This document shows, one piece after another, positions 2,194-32,692 of a stretch of 34,659 nt of DNA. This stretch comes from Sulfurovum sp. GTDB taxonomy: Bacteria > Campylobacterota > Campylobacteria > Campylobacterales > Sulfurovaceae. The notes below the pieces were generated by a model, which did not search any database, had not been told where the DNA came from, and saw only the letters and a list, made by a program, of their open reading frames with translations. The stretch spans positions 1-34,659 of the forward strand of contig JALUYL010000081.1 in the NCBI GenBank assembly GCA_027012955.1. The letters run 5' to 3'. A program made the position numbers and the translations under genes. Within the stretch, counting starts at the first letter, position 1, and every line of letters starts with the position of its first letter.

Positions 2194-2270
2194 GGGCTCT
2201 TAGCTCAGCTGGTTAGAGCACTCGGCTCATAACCGAGTGGTCCGGGGTTCGAGTCCCCGAGAGCCCACCA
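2194..2270 (+). tRNA. tRNA with CAT anticodon (Met or lysidine-modified Ile2)
   Basis: A complete 77-nt cloverleaf. The acceptor stem GGGCTCT pairs with AGAGCCC, the D stem is GCTC/GAGC, the anticodon stem CTCGG/CCGAG encloses the loop CTCATAA with anticodon CAT (2228-2230), the T stem is CGGGG/CCCCG, and discriminator A plus CCA are encoded. The fully paired acceptor stem argues against the initiator. The anticodon and variable-region sequence resembles bacterial tRNA-Ile2 (CAT, lysidine) at least as much as elongator tRNA-Met. The 3' part is the integration target of the island and is duplicated at 32645-32692, so after integration this copy keeps a complete gene. Confidence 0.96.
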
Positions 2271-2273
2271 CTT
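2226..2273 (+). repeat. attL: 48-bp direct repeat (3' half of tRNA)
   Basis: This segment runs from the anticodon loop through CCA plus three more bases. It is identical over 48 bp to 32645-32692, in the same orientation. The flanking bases differ at both ends, so the repeat has sharp borders. A tyrosine recombinase gene lies inside the far copy. This is the classical signature of site-specific integration into the 3' end of a tRNA gene. Confidence 0.93.
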
Positions 2274-2981
2274 ACAAACAACGCTTTCAGCGTAATATTA
2301 CCCATTTGTTTAATGTCATATAGATTTATTAATTTAAATTTTTATACCCTATTGCTATAGAAAAACCTAAAAGCTGTAATTTTCCTAAGTAAACTAGTAG
2401 TTCTATTGGTGGACTCCCAATGTTTAGCAGCTTTGGGCCACTGTGCTATTATCGTTCTTTAATCACTAAAAGTTAAAAGAAAAAAGATGGTGCAGTATGG
2501 ATATTATACAACAAACGCTTTAAGTAAAGTGTGTGGGAGTGTAAATTTTATATCGTATGAATATTCGAATACAGAAGAAACATTATATGGAAAATTAAGA
2601 CAGTATTTTGAGAGATGTTTCATGAGCTTGTAAAAAATAAAAAGAGTCTAAAATTAAAGAAGGGCATTCGATAAGTGATTAAATTTATATACTCATATCA
2701 ATAGCACTGAAATATTTGGTAGCATAGATCGTAGTATTTATCAAAGGGCAGAGTGCAGTTTAATCTAATCTGGAATAGTTCCCCGACCCTAGTTAATTCA
2801 ATATCGACCTTGATAACGATTTGTCGTGAGTCAAGTCTCGCCAATAAATTTAATTCGATTCATGCCCCACATTCTAGGTCTGGGTTGTTGATTGAGTAGA
2901 AGGCATAGGAAATTGGTTACTTCTTTATGTTGAATTTGTAAAGGGCTTAATATATAAGAATATAAGGTTTTTTTGGATAAT
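2274..2981. other. Left island end, about 700 bp without a convincing gene
   Basis: Apart from a 48-codon ORF at 2487-2633, nothing recognisable was found here on either strand. An imperfect inverted repeat (around 2780-2791 and 2875-2885) lies near the right side. The stretch may hold recombinase or excisionase arm sites, or decayed genes. Confidence 0.4.
2487..2633 (+). CDS. Possible small ORF of 48 aa or gene remnant
   Basis: An ATG-started reading frame of 48 codons, rich in Tyr, Ser and Glu, beginning MVQYGYYTTNAL and ending RQYFERCFMSL. Only a weak purine-rich stretch (AAAAAAG) lies before the start. It matches no family I recognise. Its amino-acid composition is protein-like, so it may be a decayed N-terminal fragment of a gene lost from the island border. 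It could equally be a chance ORF. Confidence 0.2.
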   Translation: MVQYGYYTTNALSKVCGSVNFISYEYSNTEETLYGKLRQYFERCFMSL

Positions 2982-4241
2982 TTAACTAGCTACTTCTTCA
3001 GTATAAGGTAATTCCAACGCTTGAATGCTCCCAACAGCGGAACCCGCAATCCCACGTATAGACCCATACATCCCAACAGTATTATCCAAGACTTTCGATA
3101 TCTGCTTCTCCCTTTGTTTCCAGATACGTCCCATAGCGCGTTTCTCGACATCAAGATCACTTTGCATCTGGGTAAAGCCCTCAACGATTGCTTCTATCTG
3201 CATGCGGAACTCAGTGGAGGTAAGATAGCCATAAAGAATACTCATTTTGTCACTTTTATTCTCTTGAGACTGCATAGTATGTGACAGTCTGACAATATGT
3301 TCCCGTAAAACAAAGGAAAGTGCTTTAAACTCTTCGTAGGTACAAATCCATACACCATCGACCAATCCCATGCGTTCCATATTCTTTGGCAGTATTTCTG
3401 TCACTAGGACTCCAAGATCAGCACTCTTATCTCTAATGTCAGTCTTGAACTTCTCTATCCAGCTCTTTTGAAACTCTTTGGTACGCTTAGATTCATAGTA
3501 GATAGTACCGCAGTTCTGTATTTCTCGGGTATTGACAGTTTGGATACAATCAGCACCCTTGATGCCTTTTTTTATTTCTTCTATTGTATCAAACGGGAAT
3601 TGTGAACGTAACCACTCTTCTATAGCCAGTTCCTGTACTTCCCCTTGTGATTGCTGGCTTCCTTGTTCAGCTTTACGTCTAGCTTCTTCAAGCTTATGTC
3701 TCAGGTCATTTAGCTGCATCTCTTTCTCTTTGAGTTTAAGCTCAGATTTTTCATGTACAACTTTTTGTATTTTCTCACGTTCTGTTTCCAGTTGTAGACT
3801 TAATGCTTTTTGAGCTTCAAGCTTAGCTCTCTCTTCTATTTCAGAATTCTCCCGCTTGAGTTGTTCTATCTGCGCCTTTGAGCGGTTAAGTTCTTTTACC
3901 TGCTCTGACTTTCTTGCAAGTTCATTCTGCATCAGTGTCATCTGCTCCTGCTGTTCATCGAGTATTTCTGTCTTGATAGATTCACTAAGCTTGATACGTT
4001 CAGCTTTAAGCTGTTGCTGTAAACTCTCTTTGAGCTTTTCATCAAAGTCTTCTTGCTGCTTTTTAAAGGAGACTTCTTTGGCTTTGAGTTGTTCGATGGC
4101 AGTTTTGTATTTCTGTCGATGTTCTGCAACTTCCCCTTGAAACTTCTTTTTCATGTCGTCTTCCATCTGATGATAGAGGATCTCGTTGACATTGACTTGT
4201 GTGCCACAGTTGGGACAGCTGATTTTGGTTTGTGTTGACAT
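2982..4241 (-). CDS. DUF2130 protein: zinc motif, long coiled coil, PD-(D/E)XK-like domain
   Basis: A 419-aa protein. The ATG at 4241 was chosen because AAGGAA lies just before it; a longer in-frame extension to 4331 looks non-coding. Residues 9-12 form a single CPNC zinc-type motif. Residues about 20-215 are a highly charged coiled coil rich in Glu, Lys and Gln. The C-terminal part carries E203, D231 (GADC) and E250-x-K252 (YYESKR), which fits the PD-(D/E)XK nuclease pattern proposed for DUF2130. The cellular role of the family is not established. It is the first gene inside the island, co-directional with the GIY-YIG gene, so a DNA-processing or defence role is possible but only inferred. 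Confidence 0.75.
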   Translation of the reverse strand: MSTQTKISCPNCGTQVNVNEILYHQMEDDMKKKFQGEVAEHRQKYKTAIEQLKAKEVSFKKQQEDFDEKLKESLQQQLKAERIKLSESIKTEILDEQQEQMTLMQNELARKSEQVKELNRSKAQIEQLKRENSEIEERAKLEAQKALSLQLETEREKIQKVVHEKSELKLKEKEMQLNDLRHKLEEARRKAEQGSQQSQGEVQELAIEEWLRSQFPFDTIEEIKKGIKGADCIQTVNTREIQNCGTIYYESKRTKEFQKSWIEKFKTDIRDKSADLGVLVTEILPKNMERMGLVDGVWICTYEEFKALSFVLREHIVRLSHTMQSQENKSDKMSILYGYLTSTEFRMQIEAIVEGFTQMQSDLDVEKRAMGRIWKQREKQISKVLDNTVGMYGSIRGIAGSAVGSIQALELPYTEEVAS

Positions 4242-4324
4242 GGGTAATTCCTTTTTTGGTATTTTTAGTGAGTGTTCAAGACCCTCAAGAGGAGGGCTGT
4301 GCAGGTGGATGATGCTCTGCGTAT

Positions 4325-5723: not shown

Positions 5724-6317
5724 ATGAAAATAGCAGACAAAAAAGCGCTTAAACGAGAATCCATTATACAAACAGCTTTACAGCTTTTCTCTACCAATGG
5801 ATTTCATAGAACTACCATACCTGACATCGCTACAAAACTTCAGATGTCAGTGGGAAATTTATATAACTACTTTTCCTCTAAAGATATATTGGCTCAGGAG
5901 ATTATCAAATACACTTCTGAAGCTTTGGGTGAGAAGATACGTGAGGTGAATATGATGGAGGCTACGGCTGAAGAGAAGATACACCAAATCGTTACTATCT
6001 ACTTTACAATGGCAAAAGAGAAGCCTGAGATGATAGAGTATTTTTTACGGGTCTATCTTTCTAACCGTGAGGTTTTTTCTGATGGTTGTGAGGGGATGGT
6101 ATGTGTGTCTGGGTTTATTACAGAGATTATGATTTTCTTTGATGACTGTGTAAGTTCTGGCGAACTTCGTAATCAAGACTTTTTTTCTGCTTTTGGACTC
6201 TTTATGGGGTATTTGGGAGGCATGGTGTTTCTTAAGGGCGAAGAGGTCTTACCGAAAGAGATAGAGTTCTACATAGATGATATTTCCCGAAATATCTATA
6301 ATGCACTAAAAGTATAA
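5724..6317 (+). CDS. TetR/AcrR-family transcriptional regulator
   Basis: A 197-aa protein with an N-terminal TetR HTH: RESIIQTALQLFSTNGFHRT at about 10-29, TIPDIATKLQMSVGNLYNYF at about 30-49, then SSKDILAQEII. The C-terminal half is a helical ligand-binding or dimerisation domain of normal size. Its stop lies 3 bp before the GTG of the group 2 hydrogenase small subunit, so the three genes very likely form one operon. A regulator in this position probably controls hydrogenase genes. The palindromes TGAATA-N2-TATTCA before hydA and before the nickel transporter have the size and symmetry expected of TetR operators, but this pairing is an inference. The inducing signal is unknown. Confidence 0.85.
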   Translation: MKIADKKALKRESIIQTALQLFSTNGFHRTTIPDIATKLQMSVGNLYNYFSSKDILAQEIIKYTSEALGEKIREVNMMEATAEEKIHQIVTIYFTMAKEKPEMIEYFLRVYLSNREVFSDGCEGMVCVSGFITEIMIFFDDCVSSGELRNQDFFSAFGLFMGYLGGMVFLKGEEVLPKEIEFYIDDISRNIYNALKV

Positions 6318-6320
6318 CTT

Positions 6321-7217
6321 GTGCCTAGCCAAAACAAACCAAAACTGCTTTGGCTACAGTCTATTACCTGCAATGGCAATACCCACTCATTTTTAAATCA
6401 TCCAGACCTTTTTTCTATATTGTCTCATTTTGAAATAGTACATCATCCTACCCTAGAGGGAGCGTATACTATGGAAGATGTTATTTCAGGGAGTGTGCCA
6501 TGTGATATACTCATATTGGAAGGTTCATTTATAGAAGAAGGACTCAAGAAAGGTGGAGTAGAAGTATCTGCGCTTATTCATCTCTATGCTGGAAAAGCAA
6601 AACATATCATTTCTGCTGGGACTTGTGCTACATTTGGGGGTATTTTTAAACAAAATAACCCAGATGAAATTTCAGGTTTTTGTTTTGATTTAGAAGAAAA
6701 AACATCAAGATATAGTGCTTATGCTTCTAAACTTATTTCGTTACCAGGGTGTCCTATGCATCCTAAGTGGATGTCCTATGTTTTACTGATGATAGTCAAT
6801 CAAAAGAAGATAGAGGTTGATAATTTGCATCGGCCAGTTGAACTCTATGGTTATACAGTACATACAGGATGTACACGTAATGAATACTTTGAATGGAAGA
6901 TTGACGTGAAAAACTTCGGTCTCAAAGAGGGTTGCCTTTTTTACGAACAAGGATGTCAAGGTCCTTACACGCGCGGCTCTTGTAACAAAATACTTTGGAA
7001 TGATGTAAGCTCTAAAACACGTGCAGGTACACCATGTTTTGGCTGTACGGAACCACACTTTCCTCAAACCTCTTTGTTTGCTACGAAGACTAATATGGGG
7101 ATACCAGCTAAGATGCCTTTGGGTATCCCTAGACGTGCTTACTTAACACTGACGGGTGTGGTGAAAAGTTTTAAGATCAAACGTTTCTCTGAAAAGTTAC
7201 TGGAGTATGACAAATGA
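6321..7217 (+). CDS. [NiFe]-hydrogenase small subunit, cytosolic, group 2-like
   Basis: A 298-aa electron-transfer subunit starting at GTG. There is no Tat signal or membrane anchor, so it should be cytosolic. Iron-sulfur ligand motifs are visible: LLWLQSITCNGN at 9-20, SAGTCATFGG near 92, SLPGCPMHP near 145, HTGC near 181 followed by CLFYEQGC for the distal cluster, and GSCN plus CFGC for the medial cluster. At the proximal cluster the usual C-x-G-C reads C17-N-G-N20, so one Cys is replaced by Asn. It overlaps the large-subunit ATG by 4 bp. The pair best fits group 2, perhaps 2d, as reported from Campylobacterota and Aquificota; the subgroup is tentative. Its role may be H2 sensing or cytosolic H2 oxidation. 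Confidence 0.85.
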   Translation: MPSQNKPKLLWLQSITCNGNTHSFLNHPDLFSILSHFEIVHHPTLEGAYTMEDVISGSVPCDILILEGSFIEEGLKKGGVEVSALIHLYAGKAKHIISAGTCATFGGIFKQNNPDEISGFCFDLEEKTSRYSAYASKLISLPGCPMHPKWMSYVLLMIVNQKKIEVDNLHRPVELYGYTVHTGCTRNEYFEWKIDVKNFGLKEGCLFYEQGCQGPYTRGSCNKILWNDVSSKTRAGTPCFGCTEPHFPQTSLFATKTNMGIPAKMPLGIPRRAYLTLTGVVKSFKIKRFSEKLLEYDK

Positions 7218-8515
7218 AAAAAATACAGATAAAACAACTCATAGAAAAAATAGAAGGTGAAGCAGAACTGGACTTCACATTCAATGATGGTCTAATAGAA
7301 GATGTCAAAATAAACTTTGGATTTTACAGAGGGATAGAAGAGATACTCAGAGGTAAAGCTGCACGTGATGCATTGGTCATAACCCCAAGAGTTTGTGGCA
7401 TATGTAACCATGCCCATCTACTCTCAGCTGTACGAGCCATAGAAAATGGTTATGAAAATAGTGGCGTAAAGATAGCACTCTCTTCCAAAGCCAATGATAT
7501 ACGCGAATTTACCCTTGCCTGTGAACTGATACAAAATCATATTAAGTGGCTCTACATCACCATACTCCCACAACTAGAAGCTTATGTGAATCAACGAAGT
7601 GAAGAGAACTATGCCATTAAAGCTACGTACTTGTCATCTACTATTACTAAAGCGATGGCTATCTTTTCAGGGCAATGGCCACACTCTAGCTATGCCGTAC
7701 CAGGAGGGGTCACCTGTGATCCTACACATTTAGATGTGATGCAGGCACAAAGTCTTGTAGATGAGAGTATTAAGTTTTTTGAACAAGTTGTGACAGGGCT
7801 TAGTTTAGATACCTATTTATCTATAGATTCAGTTTCTAATCTCCATCAAATTCAAGGTGACTTTGGAAAAATGTTGCACCTAATGGGTAGTCATGGATTG
7901 GCAGAGATTGGGCAAAGTCATGACAAGTTTATCGTTTTTGGAGATTGTATACTCTCACAATCTGGAAAATCCATCGTTACCAATGTTTCTAATGTAGATA
8001 CACGTTATGTAGAAGAAAGTAAGCAAAAGGGTACAGTAGCCAAAGCAGTCACCTATAAAAATAGACTTTATGAAGTAGGACCGTTGGCACGTGGTATGGT
8101 AGCAAAAACGCCTATCATTAAAAATTTACATAAACGGTATAAAGATTCACTACTTACGCGTGTGTTTTCACGCATCAATGAAGTAGCACTTTTACTTGAC
8201 TATTCAAAAACACTTTTACATAACCTCCAATTGGATGAACCTTCCTGCACACTTGAATCCAATGTAAAACTGTATGAATTTGAAGGTACAGGTGTGGTAG
8301 AAGCGGCACGTGGTTCACTTATACATAAAACAACAGTCAGGGAAGGGCTTATCACAAACTACGACATCATTACACCCACACAGTGGAATCTCAGTCATGG
8401 TAGCAAAGAAGAACAGGGGATAGCCATTGAAGCAATGGTAGGTTCTAAAAGTATAGAAGAAGCCACTTTTATATTCCGTACTTTTGATGTTTGTTCTGTT
8501 TGCACAGCACAATAA
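7214..8515 (+). CDS. [NiFe]-hydrogenase large subunit, cytosolic, group 2-like
   Basis: A 433-aa catalytic subunit. The N-terminal metal-site motif RVCGICNHAH supplies C61 and C64, with H68. The C-terminal motif DVCSVC supplies C427 and C430. The protein then ends after only Thr-Ala-Gln: the His that normally follows the second CxxC is Gln, and there is no C-terminal peptide to be cleaved. Absence of the extension is also known in regulatory (HoxC/HupV-type) hydrogenases. It starts within the small-subunit stop (ATGA). It still needs the Hyp proteins for its Ni-Fe(CN)2CO centre, but probably not a protease. A sensory role upstream of hydABC is plausible, although no histidine kinase partner is seen in the window. 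Confidence 0.87.
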   Translation: MKKIQIKQLIEKIEGEAELDFTFNDGLIEDVKINFGFYRGIEEILRGKAARDALVITPRVCGICNHAHLLSAVRAIENGYENSGVKIALSSKANDIREFTLACELIQNHIKWLYITILPQLEAYVNQRSEENYAIKATYLSSTITKAMAIFSGQWPHSSYAVPGGVTCDPTHLDVMQAQSLVDESIKFFEQVVTGLSLDTYLSIDSVSNLHQIQGDFGKMLHLMGSHGLAEIGQSHDKFIVFGDCILSQSGKSIVTNVSNVDTRYVEESKQKGTVAKAVTYKNRLYEVGPLARGMVAKTPIIKNLHKRYKDSLLTRVFSRINEVALLLDYSKTLLHNLQLDEPSCTLESNVKLYEFEGTGVVEAARGSLIHKTTVREGLITNYDIITPTQWNLSHGSKEEQGIAIEAMVGSKSIEEATFIFRTFDVCSVCTAQ

Positions 8516-8571: not shown

Positions 8572-8634
8572 ATTGAATAGTTATTCATTTTTATTTAAGC
8601 TTATTTTTCTTATCATAGTGAATGACTATTCAAT
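8572..8634 (+). promoter_or_regulatory. hydA promoter region with two TGAATA-N2-TATTCA operators
   Basis: TGAATAGTTATTCA (8574-8587) is a perfect palindrome with a 2-bp spacer. TGAATGACTATTCA (8619-8632) is the same motif with one mismatch. The two sites also form an inverted pair with each other (8572-8587 against 8619-8634, 15 of 16). TATCAT (8611-8616), two bases before the second site, is a possible -10 box. The same -10-like box, spacing and palindrome recur before the nickel-transporter gene at 19793-19814. This suggests repression at the transcription start, possibly by the TetR protein at 5724-6317. Confidence 0.65.
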
Positions 8635-8656
8635 TACACTAAAAGAGGAGAGTAGA

Positions 8657-9895
8657 ATGAGTATAGATAAAGAAGAATCCGTAAAAAAACTCTTTACGGC
8701 TGAAAGTGCACAGGTAGACACCAACAAAGGTGATGGCTACTACGATGAATTATATATTCAATGTCAAAAGAGAATTGAGGATTTAAAAAAATTAGAACCT
8801 CTCAACAATAGAAGAGATTTTATGGAGACAGTAACAGAAGAAGGGCTTGAGAGAAGAGACTTTCTTAAGTGGTCTTCTGCAACGACTGCTATGCTGATGC
8901 TTCCTGCGTCATTTACGCCTCTTGTGGCTGAAGCTGCAACACTCATGAACAGGGTGCCTGTCATTTGGATGGAACTAAGTGATTGTGCAGGTAACTCTGA
9001 AGCTCTTTTACGTTCAGACGGACCTAAGATTGATGAAATTGTATTAGACATCATCTCTTTGGAATTCCATGAAACCCTTCAAGCAGCTTCTGGTCACCAG
9101 GCTGAGAAGCAAATGGAAGAAGCGATGGAGCACTTTAAAGGGAAATATCTTCTCTTTGTTGAGGGTGCAATTCCACTAGGTATGAATGGACAATATGGAA
9201 CGATTGGAGCAAAAGGTGAAACTTTTGTAGATCACTTACAACGTGTACAAGAAGGAGCAGCTGCAGTTGTTGCGGTTGGTTCATGTGCTACGTATGGTGG
9301 TATTCCTGCTGCTGCACCAAACCCGACAGATGCTGTTGGGGTTATGGACGTAGTAAAAGGTAAGCCAATTATCAACATCCCAGCATGTCCAGCAAACCCT
9401 TCTAATATGGTAGGGGTGATTTTACACTTTGTACTCACTGGAACTATCCCTGAACTCGATTCACTTTTACGTCCTAAGTTTGCCTTTGGATATCGTATCC
9501 ATGACAACTGTGAAAGACGTGCACACTTTGATGCGGGTGAATATGTAGAAGAGTGGGGTGATGAAGGTGCGAAAAATAACTTCTGTCTCTACAAAATGGG
9601 ATGTAAGGGTCCTATGACATTCAATAACTGTTCTATCATTCGTTATAACGAAGGGGTGAACTGGCCTATTGGTGTAGGACGTGGATGTATCGGTTGTTCT
9701 GAACCAGATTTCTGGGACAAGTATGCCTATGAAAGACCAATGGCAAATGCCAACATTAAAGCACCTACAGGTGGGGTTGAAAAAACCGTTGATGAATTTG
9801 GTTTAGGATTGTTGACAGCAGCAGGTATCGGAATTGGTATCCATGCAGCAGCAAGTGCAATAGCAGGTAAAAGAGAAGATGGAGGAGAATACTAA
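8657..9895 (+). CDS. hydA: Uptake [NiFe]-hydrogenase small subunit HydA (Tat-exported, group 1)
   Basis: A 412-aa protein. The ATG at 8657 was chosen because GAGGAG precedes it; an upstream ATG would run through the operators. It passes electrons from the periplasmic active site to haem b of HydC. A twin-arginine signal RRDFLK (66-71) followed by a hydrophobic stretch and AEA near 93 directs Tat export of the folded dimer. The 65 residues before it are unusually long and contain another RRDF at 52-55. Cluster motifs include VGSCATYGG, NIPACPANP, HDNC, CLYKMGC and GCIGC. The proximal motif is C110-A-G-N113 instead of CxGC. A C-terminal hydrophobic segment (LGLLTAAGIGIGIHAAASAI) anchors it in the membrane. 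It overlaps hydB by one base (TAATG). Confidence 0.93.
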   Translation: MSIDKEESVKKLFTAESAQVDTNKGDGYYDELYIQCQKRIEDLKKLEPLNNRRDFMETVTEEGLERRDFLKWSSATTAMLMLPASFTPLVAEAATLMNRVPVIWMELSDCAGNSEALLRSDGPKIDEIVLDIISLEFHETLQAASGHQAEKQMEEAMEHFKGKYLLFVEGAIPLGMNGQYGTIGAKGETFVDHLQRVQEGAAAVVAVGSCATYGGIPAAAPNPTDAVGVMDVVKGKPIINIPACPANPSNMVGVILHFVLTGTIPELDSLLRPKFAFGYRIHDNCERRAHFDAGEYVEEWGDEGAKNNFCLYKMGCKGPMTFNNCSIIRYNEGVNWPIGVGRGCIGCSEPDFWDKYAYERPMANANIKAPTGGVEKTVDEFGLGLLTAAGIGIGIHAAASAIAGKREDGGEY

Positions 9896-11787
9896 TGCCA
9901 GAATTAAATGAACAAGCAGAAGCCCAAGCAACAGGTGGTGGAGCTGAAGTAACAGAAACTGTAGAGGAAAAAGGTTTTCATAAGACAGATGCAAATGGAA
10001 ACAAACATATTATTGTGGATCCCATTACAAGAATTGAAGGACACCTTAGAATTGAAGCAGTGATTAACTCTGATAATGTCATTGTAGATGCATGGAGTTC
10101 TTCAACGATGTTTAGAGGGATTGAAACTATCTTAAAAGGTAGAGACCCAAGAGACTGTGGTTTAATGGCAATGCGTATTTGTGGTGTATGTACAGGAACG
10201 CATTATCAAAGAAGTATAGAAGCAGTTGAAGATGCATTTAAAATTACCATTCCTAAAAATGCACGTATTGTACGGAACCTTATTCAGGGCTCACTGCAAG
10301 TACATGATCACTTTGTACATTTTTATCATCTTCATGCACTTGACTTTGTGGATGTTGTTGACGCAACTAAAGCAGACCCAGAAGCGACTGCAGCAGAAGC
10401 AGTTAAGTGGGCAAAAGTAGCAGGTACAACACCATATATCTCTGGGGCTACAGCCTATAAAGAGATTCAAGACCGTATCATTAAGTTTGTAAAAGAAGGT
10501 CGTCTTGGTATCTTTGGAAATGGATACTGGGGAAATAATGGTTATAAACTAACACCTGAACAAAATCTTATTGGTGTAGCACATTACCTTAAAGGACTTG
10601 ATGTACAAAGACGTATGTCTAAGATGCATGCACTCTTTGGTGGGAAAAGTCCTCACCCTCAATCTATTGTTGTTGGTGGAGTAACTTGTGTTCAAGATAT
10701 TCAAAATCCTGCACGTATTGCATTGTTCCAAGAGTTACTTCGTGAGACAACTGAATTTGTGAAAAAAGCCTATTTGCCAGATATCTATATGGCAGGAACG
10801 GCGTATGCAAAAGAAGCAACAGATAACGCACAGTCTTTCCATGGTACGTCACATAAAGGTACTCTAGGTAAAGGTGTTGGTGGTTCTGGTGGGGGACTAC
10901 TCTCTTACATGTCTTATGGTGACTTTAGACTTGATGATACAGGATTTTATAGTTCTGAACTTTTCCTCCCTAGAGGACTTGTACTTGATGGTGATATTAC
11001 TAAAGTACATGAATTGGATGAAGCAAAGATTACTGAAGATGTAACACACTCATGGTATGAAGGTACAGGTGCCCCTGAGCATCCGTACGTAGGTACAACT
11101 ATTCCTAAATATACAGGATTAGAGAAAAAAGAAGATGGATATGCGTATCTTAAAACAGATGAGAAATATTCATGGATTAAATCTCCACTCTATAATGGAC
11201 GAAAAGTTGAAGTAGGACCACTCGCACGTATGGTAGTTGGATATGTAAAAGGTGATAAAACTATCACTAAATACGTAGGTGATTTCTTGAAACGTTCTGG
11301 TCTTCCAATTACAGTACTTTTCTCTACTGTGGGTAGAACTGCAGCACGTGCTATTGAGACGGAGATGATTGCAGATGGTATGAAAGACTGGGCAGCAGAG
11401 CTTGCTAAAAATGCAGCTTCTGGTGACTTAAGTACATGGACTGAATTTGATTTTGATGAAGTGAGTAAAGACTGTAAAGGTAGAGGACTTGCTGAAGCAC
11501 CTAGAGGATCTTTAGGACACTGGGTTGTCATTAAAGATGGTAAAGTTAAAAACTACCAAGCTGTTGTTCCTTCTACATGGAATGCAGGTCCGAGAGGACC
11601 AAATGGTGAGATAGGTGCTTATGAAGCATCACTTATTGGTACAAAAGTAGCAAACCCTGAAGAACCATTGGAAATCATACGAACTGTTCATAGCTTTGAC
11701 CCTTGTATTGCTTGTGCAGTGCATGTGGTGGATACAAAAGGTAAGGAGTTGGCTACATATAAAGTCGACCCTACCTGTGCATTCTAG
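9895..11787 (+). CDS. hydB: Uptake [NiFe]-hydrogenase large subunit HydB (group 1, likely 1b)
   Basis: A 630-aa catalytic subunit that oxidises H2 at the Ni-Fe(CN)2CO centre on the periplasmic side. It is carried across the membrane with HydA. About 35 hydrophilic N-terminal residues precede the conserved DPITRIEGHLRIEA. The L1 motif RICGVCTGTH gives C96, C99 and H103. The L2 motif DPCIACAVH gives C604, C607 and H610. Twenty residues follow H610 and are the C-terminal extension expected to be cut off after nickel insertion, probably by HydD. Sequence and gene order fit the Wolinella/Helicobacter membrane-bound respiratory enzymes (group 1b). The stop overlaps the ribosome-binding site of hydC. 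Confidence 0.96.
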   Translation: MPELNEQAEAQATGGGAEVTETVEEKGFHKTDANGNKHIIVDPITRIEGHLRIEAVINSDNVIVDAWSSSTMFRGIETILKGRDPRDCGLMAMRICGVCTGTHYQRSIEAVEDAFKITIPKNARIVRNLIQGSLQVHDHFVHFYHLHALDFVDVVDATKADPEATAAEAVKWAKVAGTTPYISGATAYKEIQDRIIKFVKEGRLGIFGNGYWGNNGYKLTPEQNLIGVAHYLKGLDVQRRMSKMHALFGGKSPHPQSIVVGGVTCVQDIQNPARIALFQELLRETTEFVKKAYLPDIYMAGTAYAKEATDNAQSFHGTSHKGTLGKGVGGSGGGLLSYMSYGDFRLDDTGFYSSELFLPRGLVLDGDITKVHELDEAKITEDVTHSWYEGTGAPEHPYVGTTIPKYTGLEKKEDGYAYLKTDEKYSWIKSPLYNGRKVEVGPLARMVVGYVKGDKTITKYVGDFLKRSGLPITVLFSTVGRTAARAIETEMIADGMKDWAAELAKNAASGDLSTWTEFDFDEVSKDCKGRGLAEAPRGSLGHWVVIKDGKVKNYQAVVPSTWNAGPRGPNGEIGAYEASLIGTKVANPEEPLEIIRTVHSFDPCIACAVHVVDTKGKELATYKVDPTCAF

Positions 11788-11799
11788 GAGGGCTTGATT

Positions 11800-21382: not shown

Positions 21383-21405
21383 CGAAAGTAAAAAGAAGGA
21401 AATAT

Positions 21406-21720
21406 ATGTGTTTATCAATCCCAAGTAAAGTAGTAAAAGTCTCAGACGATAAAACCATGTGTACGGTTGATACCATGGGAGTACAGCGTGATGCAAATCT
21501 TATGATGATGGATGACGATGATGTCAAAATAGGTGACTATGTACTTTTGCATATTGGTTTTGTAATGAACAAGATAGATGAAGATGAGGCACTCTCTTCC
21601 ATAGAGACATACAAAGAGATACTGGAAGTCATGGATGAAGAAGATAGGAAACGAGCCATATTGGAAGATGATGAATGTAAGGCTCGCAGTCAGCAGTATG
21701 TTGAAGAGATAAAAAGCTAA
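21406..21720 (+). CDS. hypC: Hydrogenase maturation chaperone HypC
   Basis: A 104-aa chaperone that carries the Fe(CN)2CO moiety between HypD and the large-subunit precursor. The ATG at 21406 was chosen because the protein then starts MCLSIPSKVV, which places the essential Cys at position 2, and AGAAGGA precedes it. An upstream in-frame ATG would lie in the hairpin. VLLHIGFVMNKIDEDEA near 45-60 is the second family block. The acidic C-terminal tail makes it somewhat longer than minimal HypC proteins. With two hydrogenases and only one HypC here, it probably serves both. Confidence 0.94.
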   Translation: MCLSIPSKVVKVSDDKTMCTVDTMGVQRDANLMMMDDDDVKIGDYVLLHIGFVMNKIDEDEALSSIETYKEILEVMDEEDRKRAILEDDECKARSQQYVEEIKS

Positions 21721-21736
21721 TGGCGAGGAGAATATT

Positions 21737-22879: not shown

Positions 22880-23868
22880 CAAAAACAATTACAATCGCTC
22901 ATGGAAATGGTGGAGAAGAGAATAATGAACTTATCAAAAAAATCTTCTATAAAAACTTTGAAAATGATATTTTAGCCAAGAGTGAAGATGCAGCTGTCAT
23001 AGAAGATGGAAAACTTGCCTTTACTACTGACTCATTTACCGTGAGTCCTCTCTTTTTTCCTGGTGGAGATATAGGTAAGCTTGCAGTCTGTGGTACCTGT
23101 AATGACTTAGCCATGATGGGTGCAAAACCTAAGTATATGACTTGTTCAGTCATCATAGAAGAGGGCTTTTCTACAAGAGAGTTAGAAAAAATAGTCAAGT
23201 CTATGAAAACAGAACTAGAGATAAACGGAGCCATCGTTGTGAGTGGAGACACCAAAGTAGTACCCAAAGGTGCAGTCGATAAACTCTTCATCAACACCAC
23301 AGGCATAGGTACCATAGAACATAAAGGTATCACGGCCTCAGGACTAAAAGAGGGCATGAGTATCTTAGTCTCTCGTGATGTAGGTGCACATGGAGCAACT
23401 ATCTTTGCTGCACGTGAAGGCATAGAGTTGGCAAGCTCACTTCAAACAGATTGTGCATCACTATACCCACAAGTAAGAGCCCTCATGGACTCAGGTATCA
23501 ACATTGTAGCCTTACGTGATGCTACCCGTGGAGGAGTAAGTGCTGTACTCAATGAATGGGCAAAAACTTCAGACGTTTGTGTAGAAGTAAGAGAAGAGAG
23601 CATCCCTGTACAAGAAGAGGTCAGAGGTATCTGTGAGATGCTTGGATTTGAAGCCGTTGACCTTGCCAATGAGGGTACATTTGTACTGTGTGTGAATAAA
23701 GAAGATGAGCCTAAAGCTTTGGAGGTGTTGCAGCAAACACATACAACATCAGCCGTCATCGCTACAGTAAGCCAACAACACAAAGGCAGAGTCATACTAA
23801 ACTCCTCTTGGGGAACAAAACGGTTTTTGGATTTGCCTACGGGTGAGTTATTACCTCGGATTTGCTAA
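22876..23868 (+). CDS. hypE: Hydrogenase maturation protein HypE (thiocyanate/CN donor)
   Basis: A 330-aa PurM-like ATPase that dehydrates the carbamoyl group received from HypF to give cyanide for the active-site iron. The N-terminal AHGNGGEENNELIKKIF, DSFTVSPLFFPGGDIGKLAVC, GTCNDLAMMGAKP and VSGDTKVVPKG are ATP-binding blocks of the family. The protein ends in PRIC, the conserved PRxC tail whose Cys is carbamoylated, so it is complete. It overlaps hypD by 4 bp. The stop codon lies inside the promoter of the following vapBC-like pair. Confidence 0.96.
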   Translation: MTKTITIAHGNGGEENNELIKKIFYKNFENDILAKSEDAAVIEDGKLAFTTDSFTVSPLFFPGGDIGKLAVCGTCNDLAMMGAKPKYMTCSVIIEEGFSTRELEKIVKSMKTELEINGAIVVSGDTKVVPKGAVDKLFINTTGIGTIEHKGITASGLKEGMSILVSRDVGAHGATIFAAREGIELASSLQTDCASLYPQVRALMDSGINIVALRDATRGGVSAVLNEWAKTSDVCVEVREESIPVQEEVRGICEMLGFEAVDLANEGTFVLCVNKEDEPKALEVLQQTHTTSAVIATVSQQHKGRVILNSSWGTKRFLDLPTGELLPRIC

Positions 23869-23922: not shown

Positions 23923-24168
23923 ATGACTATACGTAAAAACTTTTTATTTGAACAAGAAATAGCAAAACATCTTGAAGAGTTGGCTAAAACAGAGGGTAAG
24001 ACACAAACACAGATAGTGCAAGAGATGACAGAAGAGAGATATAGACAGATACGAAAAAAAAGAAGTCTGGATGCTCTAAAAAAGCTAAAGAATTCACCAG
24101 CCGCGAATATAGGTGATATTGATATACGACAAATACGTATAGAAAAAGCGTTAAAACATGCAGAATAA
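23923..24168 (+). CDS. Putative antitoxin of a VapBC-like pair
   Basis: An 81-aa basic protein. Residues 1-35 (TIRKNFLFEQEIAKHLEELA, then KTEGKTQTQIVQEM) read as a ribbon-helix-helix DNA-binding domain. The C-terminal half is charged and probably binds and blocks the toxin. It overlaps the PIN-domain gene by 11 bp, as toxin-antitoxin pairs usually do. Inverted repeats cover its promoter. The assignment rests on the pairing and fold pattern, not on a named family. Confidence 0.72.
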   Translation: MTIRKNFLFEQEIAKHLEELAKTEGKTQTQIVQEMTEERYRQIRKKRSLDALKKLKNSPAANIGDIDIRQIRIEKALKHAE

Positions 24169-24580
24169 TATCTTTGTAGATACGAATATCGTCATAGATA
24201 TGTGTGACAACAGCAGAGCACTACATGAGAATAGTTTTTCATGTATTACAAACTATTTGGAACAAGATAACTGTGAGATTTTTATCAATAGTGATACGCT
24301 TGCAAATGTATTTTATGTTCTGTCTAATCGTTCTACGCTAAATGAGGTTGAAGTGCTAGATAAAATGATGTTTGTAAATGATATTTTTACATTAGTGTCT
24401 ATTGAATCTGAAGATGTTGTCATGGCATTAGCGTTATGTGCTGATGGTTCTACACCTCATAAAGATTATGAAGATGCTATGCAGTATGTATGTGCTAAAA
24501 AAGTGGATGCTGACTTGATTGTGACTAATGATAAGGGGTTTGTTAGTTTGGATATTAGCATAGCTGGTACAAATGGATAG
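24158..24580 (+). CDS. PIN-domain toxin, VapC-like
   Basis: A 140-aa PIN-domain ribonuclease. The N-terminal NIFVDTNIVIDM gives the first acidic residue (D8). HKDYEDAMQY near 101-110 gives E105/D106, and DLIVTNDKGF near 119-128 gives D125. These fit the metal site of PIN nucleases. VapC relatives cut tRNA or rRNA when the antitoxin is degraded. It overlaps the antitoxin by 11 bp and the Abi-like gene by 8 bp. In an integrated island such a pair can select against loss of the island. Confidence 0.82.
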   Translation: MQNNIFVDTNIVIDMCDNSRALHENSFSCITNYLEQDNCEIFINSDTLANVFYVLSNRSTLNEVEVLDKMMFVNDIFTLVSIESEDVVMALALCADGSTPHKDYEDAMQYVCAKKVDADLIVTNDKGFVSLDISIAGTNG

Positions 24581-25625
24581 TATATTAAATTATGATAGTG
24601 TTGGTAAAGTACTATTTTTATTTATACCTATTCTACTATATTATAAATTGAACGGTCGTAAAAAATTTAAAGATAAATTTAATTCAATTTTTTCAGATAA
24701 TGATGAGCATTTACAAATAACTACAAATTTATTCATTCTCATAGAAATTGCAGTATGGACAATTATTGTTTTTTCTTTTTGGGATATATTCCTAGTTCAC
24801 CAGAATGTGAAAGATTTTGGACAATGGGGTGATTTCTTTGGTGGAGTACTCAATCCCATATTAACTTTTTTAACATTTGTTGGGCTAATGATAACTATCA
24901 TACTTCAACAAATAGAATTAAAAGAGTCAAGAGTAGAATTTAGTAGAACAGCAGATGCTTTAAGTAAACAAGAACAGCATATACAAATCCAAACTTTTGA
25001 AAATACTTTTTTTAAAATGCTTGAATTACATAATAATATTGTTGAAAATTTAAAGTTCAAATATACTGTCCCTATGTCACGGCACAATTATGAAGCATAT
25101 GATGAGAAAGCTAATGGCAGAGAAGTTTTTGAATTGGTTTTTAAGTTTTTATATTCAAATATGGGAACCGAAATAGACCCACTTAATCCATACATTAAGA
25201 GGATTCAAAATAAGAATAATCATATTCTTGGACAATACTTTAGAAACTTATATCAAATACTAAAATTCATCAAAAATCAAGAAGATTTATTAGGTAAAAA
25301 TCTTCAAAACTATGCAAATATTTTGAGAGCACAACTTTCAGCATATGAACTCATTTTTCTTTTTTTAAATTGTTTTGATGGTGTTTCAGATGAAGGACAA
25401 TTTAAAGAGTTGTTGATTGAATATGCGGTTTTACAACATTTTCCAATTAATAAAATAGAAAAAACAGATACTAAGATAAGTTATGAAGATTATATAATCA
25501 AATTATTTTTGTCAAATGGAAGAATTTTTTTCCTTAGGAAAAAAGCATTATCTCAATTTTATAAAAAAGATAAAAGTGCCTTTGATGTAAATAATATAAT
25601 GCTTTCAGAAAGAGTCTTTAATTGA
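24573..25625 (+). CDS. Putative phage abortive infection protein (PutAbiC-like)
   Basis: A 350-aa membrane protein. Hydrophobic segments lie at about 8-24, 49-72 and 88-112, followed by a short coiled coil (QIELKESRVEF to QEQHIQIQ). The cytosolic domain has FENTFFKMLELHNNIVENL, GQYFRNLYQILKFIKNQ and NYANILRAQLSAYELIFLFL, which match the pattern of the putative abortive-infection family. Members are thought to act in phage defence, with mechanism unknown. It is clearly more AT-rich than neighbouring hyp genes and overlaps the PIN gene by 8 bp and hypX by 4 bp. It was probably inserted with the toxin-antitoxin pair. Confidence 0.75.
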   Translation: MDSILNYDSVGKVLFLFIPILLYYKLNGRKKFKDKFNSIFSDNDEHLQITTNLFILIEIAVWTIIVFSFWDIFLVHQNVKDFGQWGDFFGGVLNPILTFLTFVGLMITIILQQIELKESRVEFSRTADALSKQEQHIQIQTFENTFFKMLELHNNIVENLKFKYTVPMSRHNYEAYDEKANGREVFELVFKFLYSNMGTEIDPLNPYIKRIQNKNNHILGQYFRNLYQILKFIKNQEDLLGKNLQNYANILRAQLSAYELIFLFLNCFDGVSDEGQFKELLIEYAVLQHFPINKIEKTDTKISYEDYIIKLFLSNGRIFFLRKKALSQFYKKDKSAFDVNNIMLSERVFN

Positions 25626-29144: not shown

Positions 29145-29921
29145 TTAGGAGTGTATTTCCTTTTTTAGTCTTTTTATCATATAGGGAACGTAAAATAGAT
29201 TAGATTTGTAATTTGGCTCAGCATCAAGTAAGTCAATATGCTTGAGAAGAAACTCATCTTTTACTTTTAAATAAGTTTTTAGTAAATATTTATTATCTTT
29301 CGTTGTTTTTAAATCTAAGGTTTTCTTTAAGTTAGTATATATAGCCATTTTGTCTGAAAACTTTTGTTTATCTTCATATTTGAAAACCATATAAAGAGCG
29401 GAAAATTTTAGTGCTTGAATAAACTGTCGATTGTTACCAAATGAATCTTGAACTAAGGTCTCAAAATCATCTATGGTATTGCGAAGAACATATTCACTTA
29501 GTTCTTTATTGCATTTTAGAAAAATAAAATTAATAAATTCATCACGTGTAAAGTTCTCAATATCTATATCGGTTAATCTGAATTCACTATCAATCAATTC
29601 TTCTTTATTATGTTGGATCATATATATCATAAAAGTTTTGATAATATTAGTAGAAAAAATATCATCATTATTAGAAGGCATAGTTATATTTTTTCTAAAA
29701 AAGTTTAAAAATTTGAAGTAGAAATCAATAAAAAAATTATGCATTAGAGTAAAATCTTTGATATCTCCAAATAAATTCCAAAAATCTATATGTAATCTTT
29801 CATTGGCCATGGCAAAGCGCACTAATCTTAGTAGCTCAGGTTTCTCATTCTCCCAGTTTCTAATGGTTCTTGAGGTTACATTTATTTTATGTGCGATTTC
29901 TTCTTGAGTGACTTTTTTCAT
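29145..29921 (-). CDS. HTH regulator of the integration module (258 aa)
   Basis: Residues 5-25 (TQEEIAHKINVTSRTIRNWE) are a clear helix-turn-helix. The remaining 230 residues are rich in Phe, Asn, Asp and Lys and match no family I know. The gene is strongly AT-rich, like the integrase, and is divergent from it with 136 bp between. That intergenic region holds the integrase promoter and an ATTCC palindrome, so this protein is a plausible repressor of integrase expression and of its own gene. The ATG has AAGG at a suitable distance. Confidence 0.65.
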   Translation of the reverse strand: MKKVTQEEIAHKINVTSRTIRNWENEKPELLRLVRFAMANERLHIDFWNLFGDIKDFTLMHNFFIDFYFKFLNFFRKNITMPSNNDDIFSTNIIKTFMIYMIQHNKEELIDSEFRLTDIDIENFTRDEFINFIFLKCNKELSEYVLRNTIDDFETLVQDSFGNNRQFIQALKFSALYMVFKYEDKQKFSDKMAIYTNLKKTLDLKTTKDNKYLLKTYLKVKDEFLLKHIDLLDAEPNYKSNLFYVPYMIKRLKKEIHS

Positions 29922-30057: not shown

Positions 30058-31176
30058 ATGGCAAGACAAAAAAGTAAAAAATATGATGGTGTTTATCAAA
30101 ATAAACTTCAAAATGGTGATGCTAGTTACTATATTGCATACAATGATGAATATGGTAAAAAAATATGGTTAAAAATTGGGAAGAAAAGTCATGGAGTCAA
30201 TGAGGCATTTTGTCATAACAAAAGAAATGAAATAATGTTAAAAGTAAAACTTGGTGAAGACATACCAATAAAAAATAAAAAAAATAAGTCATATATTTTT
30301 AAAGAGGCTTATCAAGATTATATAGAATGGGTAAAGTTAGAAAAAAAAACTTGGAGGAACGATAAAGTATGTTTTGAAATACATCTTGCACCTCATTTGG
30401 GTACTCGCGAAGTAAGTTCTTTAGAAAGTATAGATTTTGAATTTATAAAGTCTAAAAAAATGAGTGAAGGTTTTGCGAATGCTACTGTAAGGGGTATATT
30501 AGCTACCGCAAGACAGATATTTAATTATATTATACGCACTAATAAAATAAAAAATTTTATAAACCCGATTAGTGACGGAAAAGTAAAAATGCCAAAAGTC
30601 AACAATAAAAAGTTAGGTTTTTTTACCTTTGAACAGATTGAAAAAGTATTTTTTGAATTAAAAAAAGAAAGATCACCTCTAAAATATAATCTTACATTAT
30701 TATTACTGCATACTGGTGCACGATTTAGCGAAGTTGCTTCTTTGACTTGGAATGATATAAATTTTGATAATAATCTTATTTATTTTAAGGAAACAAAAGA
30801 CGGCAATGCCCGGCATATAGTTATGACTAGTCCTTTAATAAAATTAATAAATGAGCTCTATAAAAGTAAAAAAAATAATCTTGTTATTGCAGGAAGATTT
30901 GGCGTACAATCACCGGCAATGCCGAAACAGTGGCAAACAATTGTTGATAAGATTGTTCCGAATAATATTGGTGCCGGAAAATATCGTTTAACAACTCATA
31001 GTCTTAGACATACACATGCAAGTTGGCTTGCGATATCTGGAATGGATATAAGGCATATACAGGTGCAACTAGGTCATAGAACTTTGGAAATGACAGAACG
31101 ATACAGTCACTTAATTCCCGACAAGAGATATGAATTAACAAAAGAAGTATTTGATGAGATCGGAAATTTGTTATGA
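30058..31176 (+). CDS. Tyrosine recombinase (island integrase)
   Basis: A 372-aa site-specific recombinase. The N-terminal part (1-180) contains an AP2-like arm-binding stretch and a core-binding domain. The catalytic domain shows R222 (LLLHTGARFSEVASLTW), K247 (KETKDG), H314 and R317 (THSLRHTHASW), H340 (VQLGHRTLEM) and the nucleophile Y349 (ERYSHL). All catalytic residues are present, so it should be active. It lies 1.5 kb inside attR, and the tRNA repeat matches the usual target of this family. It has a strong promoter and is AT-rich compared with the hydrogenase genes. Confidence 0.95.
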   Translation: MARQKSKKYDGVYQNKLQNGDASYYIAYNDEYGKKIWLKIGKKSHGVNEAFCHNKRNEIMLKVKLGEDIPIKNKKNKSYIFKEAYQDYIEWVKLEKKTWRNDKVCFEIHLAPHLGTREVSSLESIDFEFIKSKKMSEGFANATVRGILATARQIFNYIIRTNKIKNFINPISDGKVKMPKVNNKKLGFFTFEQIEKVFFELKKERSPLKYNLTLLLLHTGARFSEVASLTWNDINFDNNLIYFKETKDGNARHIVMTSPLIKLINELYKSKKNNLVIAGRFGVQSPAMPKQWQTIVDKIVPNNIGAGKYRLTTHSLRHTHASWLAISGMDIRHIQVQLGHRTLEMTERYSHLIPDKRYELTKEVFDEIGNLL

Positions 31177-31235: not shown

Positions 31236-31481
31236 ATGAACGATATGGAAAGAATAATGTATGAATTAATCTTCAATGAATATAAAAAATTATCATTCAA
31301 AAGAGTAGAAACAGCAAAGCTTATAGGTAAAAGTGTTAAAACACTGGATACTATGAGGGGTGAAGGAATGGGTCCTGAGTATTCAAAAAATGATACTCCT
31401 GGAGGAAAAGGTGCCGTTATGTATCCGATTCATTCAATAATAGCATACATACTCAGAGATGATTACAAAAAAACTGCTTAG
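31236..31481 (+). CDS. Small DNA-binding protein, possible excisionase
   Basis: An 81-aa protein just downstream of the integrase. The segment RVETAKLIGKSVKTLDTMRG (about 24-43), followed by YSKNDTPGGKGAVMYPIHSI, resembles the winged-helix layout of small excisionase/MerR-like proteins, where a short helix-turn-helix is followed by a wing containing Gly and Tyr-Pro. It would help direct excision. It ends inside the start of the next ORF (TAGTG). The role is inferred from position and size. Confidence 0.55.
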   Translation: MNDMERIMYELIFNEYKKLSFKRVETAKLIGKSVKTLDTMRGEGMGPEYSKNDTPGGKGAVMYPIHSIIAYILRDDYKKTA

Positions 31482-31723
31482 TGGTCAACATTGGCAATAT
31501 CAAGGAGTATAGAGAAGAGATAGTTTGCGCAAAAATACCATTACGCCAAAAGCCTGTTAAAGTTAAAAAAGTGAAAAAGACTAAAGCTAAACATGGAAGA
31601 CCTAAAAAAGGTGAAGTTCAAGAACCTGTGAAAATCACTGTTTTACAGCAACAACAGCAAATGGATAGTGTCCAAGAGATGCTTAGACTTGCTTCAACAG
31701 ATTGTGGCACAGGAGTCAAATAA
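31481..31723 (+). CDS. Lysine-rich small protein of unknown function
   Basis: An 80-aa reading frame starting at GTG that overlaps the previous stop by one base. The middle is very rich in Lys, with a GRPKKG motif similar to AT-hooks, followed by a Gln run (QQQQQ). These features suggest nucleic-acid binding. No family is recognised. Its tail is overlapped for 56 bp by the next frame. Confidence 0.4.
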   Translation: MVNIGNIKEYREEIVCAKIPLRQKPVKVKKVKKTKAKHGRPKKGEVQEPVKITVLQQQQQMDSVQEMLRLASTDCGTGVK

Positions 31724-32099
31724 AACTCTAAAGGTAATAGAGAAGTATAGATCAGGAGGTAAACTCCATATTAGCGTTGTTGAGGGAGATATCCCTATTT
31801 CTGTCTTTTACTCAGGTGTTAATGTGCATGATAGTGCTCTAGCTCTGATTAAGGAAGAGAAAGATAAGTTCAAGTACTTTAACTTCACCCCTTCTTCTGA
31901 TATCCACCATTACAACCAACTACGTATGGTTGAGAGAGTAAACAAATATCTTAAAGATGACTTTGTATGTAACAAAGATCTATTATCAAGGAGCTACCAA
32001 AGTAGCTTCTGTTCTTGCATTTTGAATTTTATCTATCTACATCCATCAGAGTTTAAAGTTGCTATAACACTCACTAATAAAGGGACAAAAAAGAACTAA
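31668..32099 (+). CDS. Hypothetical protein, last island gene before attR
   Basis: A 143-aa reading frame beginning at GTG inside the preceding gene. The part from about residue 20 (KTLKVIEKYRSGGKLHISVV to NKGTKKN) has normal protein composition. I do not recognise it. The start is uncertain: no good ribosome-binding site precedes the GTG, and the frame overlap leaves room for a shorter product or a frameshifted fusion with the previous gene. Confidence 0.4.
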   Translation: MSKRCLDLLQQIVAQESNKTLKVIEKYRSGGKLHISVVEGDIPISVFYSGVNVHDSALALIKEEKDKFKYFNFTPSSDIHHYNQLRMVERVNKYLKDDFVCNKDLLSRSYQSSFCSCILNFIYLHPSEFKVAITLTNKGTKKN

Positions 32100-32644
32100 A
32101 GTATGAAGGATGTCGCAAAAATGGATTTTAGTAAATTTGATAGAAAATAAGTGAAATGCAGGAAAAATCGTTGGAAGCTTTTTTTAAATATGAAAAAGTA
32201 GTGCTTAGACGATATTGGTTACGTTACAGAATGGGGATTGACTGCAAGTGGCTCTTACGTCTGTGTGTTTTTGAAAAAGCCATAAAATATAGGCTTCATA
32301 CAAATTGTCAATGAAATCTCACTATATTGCCATATATTATTACCACAAGTACTTTGTATTAGCCTGAGCAATGAAGAGGATGAAGGCTCATCTTTTAAAA
32401 ATATAGTTATGTAATTAACTCGAAAATGATTAAATATAATTTTCGTATTTGAGACTCAAATCACAATATAGTAATATCTAAATTTTGCTACTTCATTGCT
32501 ACACATTTTATGCTAATCTGTACTTTTGTTTGGGAAAGTTTGCGCTACTCTGTTTTTACTACACATCCATAAAAAGACTTATGTGCCATTGTTTGCGTAT
32601 CTTTTCTTAACTAAGTGAATCTTTAAAAGTAGATGAAAAACCCC
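32100..32644. other. Right island end, about 540 bp without a gene
   Basis: No convincing coding region is seen on either strand. TTGCTAC occurs twice 11 bp apart (32485-32491 and 32496-32502), with CTACACAT repeated further on. These could be recombinase arm-type sites beside attR, but short motifs in AT-rich DNA can occur by chance. Confidence 0.35.
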
Positions 32645-32692
32645 CTCATAACCGAGTGGTCCGGGGTTCGAGTCCCCGAGAGCCCACCACTT
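32645..32692 (+). repeat. attR: 48-bp copy of the tRNA 3' half
   Basis: Exact duplicate of 2226-2273, from the anticodon loop to three bases past CCA. It lacks the acceptor 5' strand, D arm and 5' anticodon stem, so it is not a functional tRNA. It marks the right junction and is the displaced original 3' end of the host gene. Confidence 0.93.

Follow-up and report, generated by a model that had tools for sequence, protein, structure and literature searches.

A hydrogen-oxidation locus on a very likely integrative island in a tRNA-Met gene of Sulfurovum

Introduction

How did a whole set of genes for hydrogen oxidation come to lie between two copies of part of a tRNA gene? The question was raised by a 34,659-base contig of a Sulfurovum sp. 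genome (JALUYL010000081.1), analysed over its whole length and called the window below, in which an earlier reading made from the letters alone (the sequence-only reading) had described a hydrogen-oxidation island inserted in a tRNA gene. The answer is very likely that a tyrosine recombinase inserted a 30.4-kb integrative island into the 3' half of tRNA-Met(cat), and that this island carries the complete hydrogen-oxidation locus of Campylobacterota. The tRNA-derived repeat, the gene content, a junction free of the island in a relative, the attachment (att)-side features of an integrase family and discordant gene trees were observed directly. The observation of the sequence-only reading was thus confirmed, and its interpretation was partly supported; as it proposed, the island may be mobile and could confer hydrogenotrophy in one step.

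The boundaries and the island-free junction

The 30.4 kb were bounded by a 48-bp direct repeat at 2226-2273 and 32645-32692, whose copies were identical at 48 of 48 positions, as the sequence-only reading had reported, with a spacing of 30,419. It was the longest direct repeat reported in the window, the only other family being of 33 nt at 73%. The repeat matched the 3' part of tRNA-Met(cat) from the anticodon loop onward. The target gene, which was intact, lay at 2194..2270 on the + strand (ARAGORN; Rfam RF00005, 72.7 bits). Boundary sites of this kind are called attL and attR. Both were located by repeat search on the + strand, attL at 2226..2273, where a similar cut position was seen by eye in four relatives, and attR at 32645..32692. 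The window has several features of a tRNA-borne island: a tRNA 3'-end repeat at both boundaries, an intact tRNA at one of them and a complete recombinase inside.

The genus set consisted of 78 genomes, including the source genome (G000), and a rodA match was found in 76 of them. Forty rodA-tRNA-Met loci from relatives, reaching 0.3-18.8 kb beyond the tRNA (at least 5 kb in 30 of the 40), were compared with the window. The order rodA-tRNA-Met was conserved in all 40, and no hydrogenase gene was found downstream of the tRNA in these stretches. When the window flanks were joined at the repeat (1039-2273 plus 32693-32969), they aligned with the locus L067 of genome G087 over 1512 bp at 84.1% identity with no gap, which bore out the claim of an insertion in the tRNA gene. 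The joined flanks also aligned with the G160 locus (L114) over 1501 bp at 78.2% with 8 gap openings, and in G161 the match ended just past the tRNA. From attR onward, the window was 94% identical over 325 bp to the DNA after tRNA-Met in G087; among the 40 loci, only G160 otherwise has that DNA beside the tRNA at comparable length (86%, 321 bp). The G087 genome was 97% complete and gave no hydB match, and in G160 the tRNA site was free of the island, with the hydrogenase genes on other contigs. Among the six genomes nearest by rodA, G161, G087, G163, G050 and G171 (88, 97, 75, 99 and 71% complete) had no hydB match and G165 had one. Close relatives thus do not all carry the cluster; the sequence-only reading had named the reverse, all of them having it at this locus and no empty site, as contrary evidence.

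The site in G087 was not pristine. The DNA after its tRNA-Met was the start of an Arm-DNA-bind_3 (DUF4102) integrase, of which the window retained only the first part, an N-terminal remnant outside the island (32882..32992, + strand; G087 DNA 94% identical, gene longer there). Since this older integrase follows the tRNA in G087, the tRNA had already been taken by an earlier element, and the site is “empty” only as regards the present island. The empty site as predicted, with rodA, the tRNA and a repeat-protein gene adjacent, was found in none of the 40 loci. The right flank also needed correction: it was not simple chromosome, with a second join near 32,980, outside the island. Up to 32969 the window corresponded to the tRNA-adjacent locus of G087, and from 32988 to another G087 contig (L095). 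In G024, G033 and G042, whose genomes are each in one contig, relatives of the gene to the right of this second breakpoint were 330-450 kb away from rodA. The join at about 32,970-32,988 may have arisen by rearrangement or in assembly. A 15-bp repeat (32979-32993 and 32996-33010) was present at this breakpoint.

The integrase and its att-side repeat

The tyrosine recombinase was complete (30058..31176, + strand; Pfam PF00589), and it was intact as the sequence-only reading had stated, with the four boxes ARFSE, HSLRH, GHR and ERYSH, which have catalytic roles in such enzymes. Across 150 family genomes, the source genome included, the best other full-length match was 46% identical in another genus, with two internal stops, and 34% within the genus. 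A protein search gave relatives of 86%, 71% and 71% on short contigs and one of 61% in Hydrogenimonas thermophila (locus L322, genome G296). The loci of 21 relatives (20 plus L100) were read for tRNA 3' fragments beside the integrase gene, defined by a pattern match to the T-arm and CCA and not by a tRNA model, with the tRNA identity judged by eye. Such a match lay on the strand opposite to the integrase gene, at most 500 bp upstream, in 15 of the 21 loci. The fragments in L322, L323, L324 and L326 (integrases 61 to 45% identical), which include the three closest relatives read, looked like tRNA-Met, and their tRNA similarity began either at CTCATAA, the point at which the window repeat starts, or about 3 bases ahead of it. 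The fragments of the other relatives resembled, by eye, those of Leu, Asn, Phe and further tRNAs.

A motif search placed a direct repeat of the integrase family, GTAGCAAnnnnGTAGCAAAA, close to attR (32483..32502, - strand). This was the single match in the window, 142 bp inside attR, and none was found in 100 shuffles. Among 362 loci, the exact repeat recurred six times elsewhere, always a short way upstream of an integrase; several relatives had no such repeat there. Its distance to the tRNA fragment was 133 bp in L322, and variant repeats in L323 and L326 lay at 130 bp. The family was characterised by a 3' fragment of a tRNA that is cut close to the anticodon loop, with an 11-bp-spaced direct repeat inside it, and the window had both. 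Because the repeat stood near attR at a family-like distance, the right end resembled the normal end of this integrase family. The closest readable relatives lay beside tRNA-Met fragments cut at a similar place and the att-side repeat was found inside attR, and for these reasons the integrase itself probably made the insertion. When the 330 bp upstream of the integrase gene, or the DNA beside attL and attR, were compared with six relatives, the local similarity was within the range of shuffles, so that the short repeat motif was the only att-side likeness carried over. The family outlined by its target and att-side repeat in Campylobacterota can be used for finding other cargo islands.

The position of the gene was unusual. 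Most relatives carry the integrase next to the att fragment and reading away from it; here it lay 1.5 kb from the right repeat and read towards attR. A simple att inversion was considered as the cause of the flipped gene and rejected, as neither a tRNA-Met fragment nor an inverted repeat was seen upstream of it by eye and by repeat search. Divergent from the integrase was a gene for an XRE-type helix-turn-helix (HTH) protein (29145..29921, - strand; HTH_3 match weak, below the cut-off), which perhaps regulates it. Nine homologues besides itself were found for this protein, and one of them (P0124) was on a contig of 2935 bp, the same length as the contig of a 71% integrase (P0003). The divergent arrangement might hint at a conserved variant layout, the alternative being a local inversion. 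Downstream of the integrase, a small protein (31236..31481, + strand) was a very weak candidate for an excisionase (Phage_Cox, E 0.085, below the cut-off), and a 37.5% match to it was located downstream of the integrase in L323. It was followed by broken pieces of an insertion sequence (IS) transposase (31481..32099, + strand) matching a DDE/DUF772 transposase in G151. A recombinase match near the hydrogenase cluster of G151 (28%, a protein of 271 aa) was taken as unrelated, and a scan of viral contigs gave one distant match (23%).

Distribution and ancestry of the hydrogenase locus

A hydB match of any kind was present in 46 of the 78 genus genomes, the source genome included, many bins being incomplete; among the 40 genomes with a completeness of 90% or more and no more than 5% contamination, 20 had one. 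Loci around hypX were read from 80 of 116 relatives, extending no further than 10 kb to either side and often less far; 54 of the 80 were from Campylobacterota (20 of these 54 spanning at least 20 kb). The locus was largely collinear in many records of Sulfurovum, Sulfurimonas and the Arcobacter group. The gene order tetR-hupSL-hydABC-protease-hypF-nic-hypBCDE-hypX-hypA-rraB-protease was found in the window and most closely in G166, a metagenome-assembled genome of Sulfurovum (M17); other relatives split or reordered the locus or missed parts of it. The present integrase was near hypX in none of the 54 Campylobacterota loci, within the stretch covered. As the locus is common in Campylobacterota and this integrase is found at none of those 54 loci, the hydrogenase cluster has probably not travelled with an integrative element all along and was instead captured by one.

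The gene trees were compared with rodA as the host reference, with hydB loci from 27 of the 46 genomes in which that gene was matched, and hypX loci from 22 of 35. Genomes G153, G172 and G167, whose rodA row was too short, and G150, G128 and G152, which had no rodA row, were left out of the approximately unbiased (AU) tests. The hydB data rejected the rodA topology and the reverse (p-AU 1.8e-39 and 2.0e-29, 23 taxa), as did those of hypX (p-AU 3.9e-59 and 3.3e-73, 20 taxa). The trees of these genes were thus discordant with rodA, in line with the sequence-only reading, which had taken full agreement with the species tree as contrary evidence; the tests show discordance and not direction. The pairwise identity of hydB correlated weakly with that of rodA (rho 0.34; 26 genomes, G153 included), and that of hypX did not correlate significantly (rho 0.11; 20 genomes), the pairs being not independent for either gene.

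The tract from hypE to hypX, including a PIN gene (22876-27274), was 91-92% identical in DNA to G166, whereas the other aligned genes were 69-85% identical and the rodA protein of the window was 75% identical to that of G166. Judged from these identities, the tract appears as a recent recombination tract. Contamination does not seem to be the source of this likeness, as a 20-kb sample of another G000 contig gave no G166 match above 81%. The contig of G153 with hydA-D, 93.5% identical in DNA over its whole 4474 bp, was rejected as a recent transfer; the bin was contaminated by a G000-like strain (contigs C126 and C157), because it held a 96% copy of part of another G000 contig beside its own 78% copy of the overlapping region (C157 versus C103 and C5). 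A separate observation was that the hydrogenase locus of G157 and G104 (L201 and L242) adjoins lac-rodA-tRNA-Met from the opposite side and that its ends facing lac differ, which suggests repeated placement near the rodA-tRNA-Met locus.

Findings against the insertion, rival explanations and the most likely history

Several findings weigh against the reading of a captured locus inserted by its own integrase. The right flank was 93.5% identical to G087 compared with 80.6% for rodA (DNA); being closer than rodA, the flanking element must have moved on its own. To the right of 32,969, collinearity with G087 was lost, the gene that matches there being on a different G087 contig. The guanine-plus-cytosine content of the island (0.367) did not differ in a way that would mark it from the flanks (0.374 and 0.368), and the hydrogenase locus occurred in many relatives that had neither this integrase nor these repeats. 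The host reference of the trees was one gene and not a species tree. Six of the 21 integrase loci had no near tRNA fragment: in four it was 0.96-1.45 kb upstream, some of these perhaps being whole tRNA genes, and in L329 and L339 no fragment with T-arm and CCA was found. The integrase was inverted and 2.4 kb from the position in relatives, so the integration module has been rearranged. For hydrogen-sensing genes, loss or missing assembly, not transfer, was argued in the part of a published report used here (PMC9789115), which speaks against a general transfer story.

It is hardly credible that the cluster is ancestral at this place and that the repeats came from an unrelated event. Such an ancestry would fit the frequency and collinearity of the cluster within the genus, and its place next to lac-rodA, across the tRNA, in G157 and G104; the gapless G087 junction, the absence of hydrogenase genes downstream of the tRNA in the 40 stretches (0.3-18.8 kb) and the discordance of hydB and hypX with rodA all argue against it. 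Slightly more room, still very little, is left for an artefact of the metagenome bin. The window was one of 110 contigs (C81) of an incomplete genome (75.8% complete), and the join near 32,970-32,988 unites DNA that lies on two G087 contigs; however, the flanks align gaplessly with G087 through the repeat, and a chance chimera would hardly be expected to yield both an attR of 48 bp and the family motif roughly as far from it as in relatives. An unlikely explanation, more substantial than these two, is a nesting of elements, in which one with the canonical att-side repeat brought attL and attR, and the present integrase and its HTH partner came later. The canonical position beside 32483 has no integrase, which is instead 2.4 kb off in the opposite orientation. 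This explanation has to contend with the tRNA-Met fragments of the closest readable integrase relatives, the closest of which has the exact GTAGCAAnnnnGTAGCAAAA, and with the direct repeats found around 28.8-33.1 kb, none of which exceeded 24 nt (83%).

The most serious contender, to which we give a weight a little short of even, accepts a site-specific insertion and supposes that the integrase was later displaced or replaced, leaving a stranded relic that is now a fixed locus without excision. The flipped integrase lying apart from the att-side repeat, the IS transposase pieces between it and attR, and the scanned ORFs, which yielded neither a relaxase nor a conjugation gene, all point that way. 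On the other side, the two repeats have kept their identity over 48 bp, the integrase reading frame is uninterrupted and retains its catalytic boxes, and the contigs of equal size (2935 bp) bearing the HTH homologue and the 71% integrase suggest a conserved variant layout. Tyrosine recombinases can also act at a distance.

On the main reading, which is very likely, a captured locus inserted into tRNA-Met by an integrative element has the following history and working. The recombinase would have exchanged strands at the anticodon loop, of which the repeat is the visible product, and the 48-bp copy of the element would have restored the 3' end of tRNA-Met. Capture of a chromosomal hydrogenase locus by the element is the most economical origin of the cargo. 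In hydrogenases of this type, electrons pass from H2 through cytochrome b to quinone; the hydABC products would accordingly carry them from the periplasm to the quinone pool, and the products of hypA-F and hypX, the nickel transporter and two proteases would mature the enzyme. The island would enable its host to use H2, and might still excise, moving only with transfer functions from outside. 

Open reading frames (ORFs) of at least 90 aa between the repeats numbered 42, of which 28 were scanned with Pfam, the remaining 14 overlapping the chosen genes; two shorter ORFs were also scanned. No relaxase, conjugation or phage structural family was matched among the 28, in agreement with the sequence-only reading, so that neither the conjugation machinery of an integrative and conjugative element nor the structural or packaging genes of a prophage were found there. 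It is doubtful, though conceivable, that vent Sulfurovum owe their use of hydrogen to a trait that is both switchable and portable, with the integrase excising the island and re-inserting it at tRNA-Met, the island hitch-hiking on conjugative or mobilisable elements that share this tRNA, for instance the relaxase-bearing one of G014, and a sulphur-only cell being converted into a hydrogen oxidiser in one step. The att-bounded island offers a concrete vehicle for part of the patchy presence of hydrogenases, and gain or loss of hydrogenotrophy can be tested by polymerase chain reaction across the att site.

Comparison with known systems

Islands for hydrogenotrophy are already known, and the present one stands out as small, precisely bounded and equipped with a probable integrase. 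The published reports are cited here for the parts of their text that were used. In Cupriavidus metallidurans CH34, CMGI-2 and CMGI-3 together hold all hyp and hox genes for growth on H2, and the authors suggest that autotrophy may be lost through IS1071-mediated excision (PMC2864759). These betaproteobacterial islands belong to the Tn4371 family, which is defined by an integrase module and conjugative genes, and CMGI-3 measures 97 kb (PMC2864759); in contrast, the island in the window is of 30 kb, targeted to tRNA-Met, with no conjugation gene found. The vent sulphur oxidiser Hydrogenovibrio sp. SP-41 has two hydrogenases in a strain-specific region of 62.6 kb, the last 50.4 kb of which are a predicted genomic island, and the genomic context differs between strains (PMC6501319). 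That region differs from ours in its group 1d and sensory 2b enzymes and in its flanking genes for DNA mobilisation and modification, without att sites mapped in the portion of the report used (PMC6501319). The vent isolate Sulfurospirillum sp. 1612, also of Campylobacterota, has the islands GI01 and GI02, the latter with formate hydrogenlyase (PMC11406935). The GI01 range covers a 49-50% integrase relative (P0020, encoded letter for letter in L323) beside a tRNA-Met fragment; the part of the report used does not mention a hydrogenase as GI01 cargo (PMC11406935). Among the titles that literature searches listed, none concerned a Sulfurovum hydrogenase island with mapped att sites, which is weak as a sign of absence.

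Within the genus, G014 (L129, 1525-19319) had a 17.7-kb element at the same tRNA-Met, with an integrase, a MobA/VirD2 relaxase, a NikA-like protein and an Eco57I-type methylase. This element was like the island in its att copy with the same start and its tyrosine recombinase at the right end, but its integrase was in the usual orientation, it had a relaxase, and it gave no match to the hydrogenase genes of the window. Its relaxase implies that, within the genus, this tRNA site does host elements equipped with a mobilisation gene.

Gene content of the island

All four PF00374 matches in the source genome (75.8% complete) were on this contig, which makes it the only [NiFe] hydrogenase locus found there. 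The sequence-only reading had seen a full kit for H2 oxidation; Pfam bore out the gene set, with reservations as to hupL and the nickel transporter. The genes hydA, hydB and hydC (8573..12549, + strand; Pfam and motifs) encode the small subunit with a RRDFLK twin-arginine translocation (Tat) motif, the large subunit with RICGVC and DPCIAC, and cytochrome b. Upstream was a second [NiFe]-hydrogenase-like pair, hupS-hupL (6321..8515, + strand; Pfam and motifs). No RRxFxK motif was found in hupS. Large subunits usually have DPCxxC and a C-terminal extension; hupL (7214-8515) had an N-terminal RVCGIC and ended in DVCSVCTAQ, without DPCxxC or a cleavable C-terminal extension. This type of C-terminus we take to be that of sensor hydrogenases, and hupSL may, from this unusual end, be a sensor or a cytoplasmic enzyme. 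The name “uptake hydrogenase” and the behaviour of hydrogenase subgroups are used as generally understood.

A TetR-family regulator preceded the pair (5724..6317, + strand; Pfam PF00440), in the same position as in relatives, and a HyaD/HybD-like maturation protease followed hydC (12575..13165, + strand; Pfam PF01750, TIGR00072). Next on the + strand came a HypF-like paralogue of 667 aa (13393-15396), directly upstream of the full-length HypF (15368-17608), both by Pfam; many relatives also have the 667-aa protein beside full-length HypF. Between the first protease and the HypF-like gene lay a perfect 21-nt inverted repeat (13190-13210 and 13275-13295, 64 nt apart). A Pfam scan left two proteins of unknown kind (17612-18806, + strand) and a divergent one (19090-19719, - strand). 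The NicO-like nickel transporter (19832-20473, + strand) was matched below the Pfam cut-off, and hypB, hypC, hypD and hypE followed (20483..23868, + strand; Pfam). The remaining maturation genes, all assigned by Pfam, were hypX (25622-27274, + strand), hypA (27267-27608, + strand), a RraB/DUF695 gene (from 27619, + strand) and a second maturation protease (28358-28891, - strand), the last two keeping the order of relatives.

Between hypE and hypX were a PIN-domain protein and a putative abortive-infection protein (24158..25625, + strand; Pfam PF01850 and PF16872; PADLOC AbiP, 2.5e-10). A PIN match was present in 8 of the 54 Campylobacterota hypX loci, and its partner varied, being AbiP-like in the window and a protein kinase with PD-T4-6/mad6-like matches in G166 (L206, 119-1677). 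The pair is possibly an exchangeable defence cassette within the hyp operon. Near the left end, a DUF2130 protein (2982-4331, - strand; Pfam PF09903) and a GIY-YIG nuclease-like protein (4325-5245, - strand; Pfam PF01541) were encoded. A 35-nt inverted match (74%) was also seen between 19716-19750 and 33013-33047, both intergenic; the second of these holds TATACTAAAGTATGA, and ACTAAAGTATGA occurred also at 32095.

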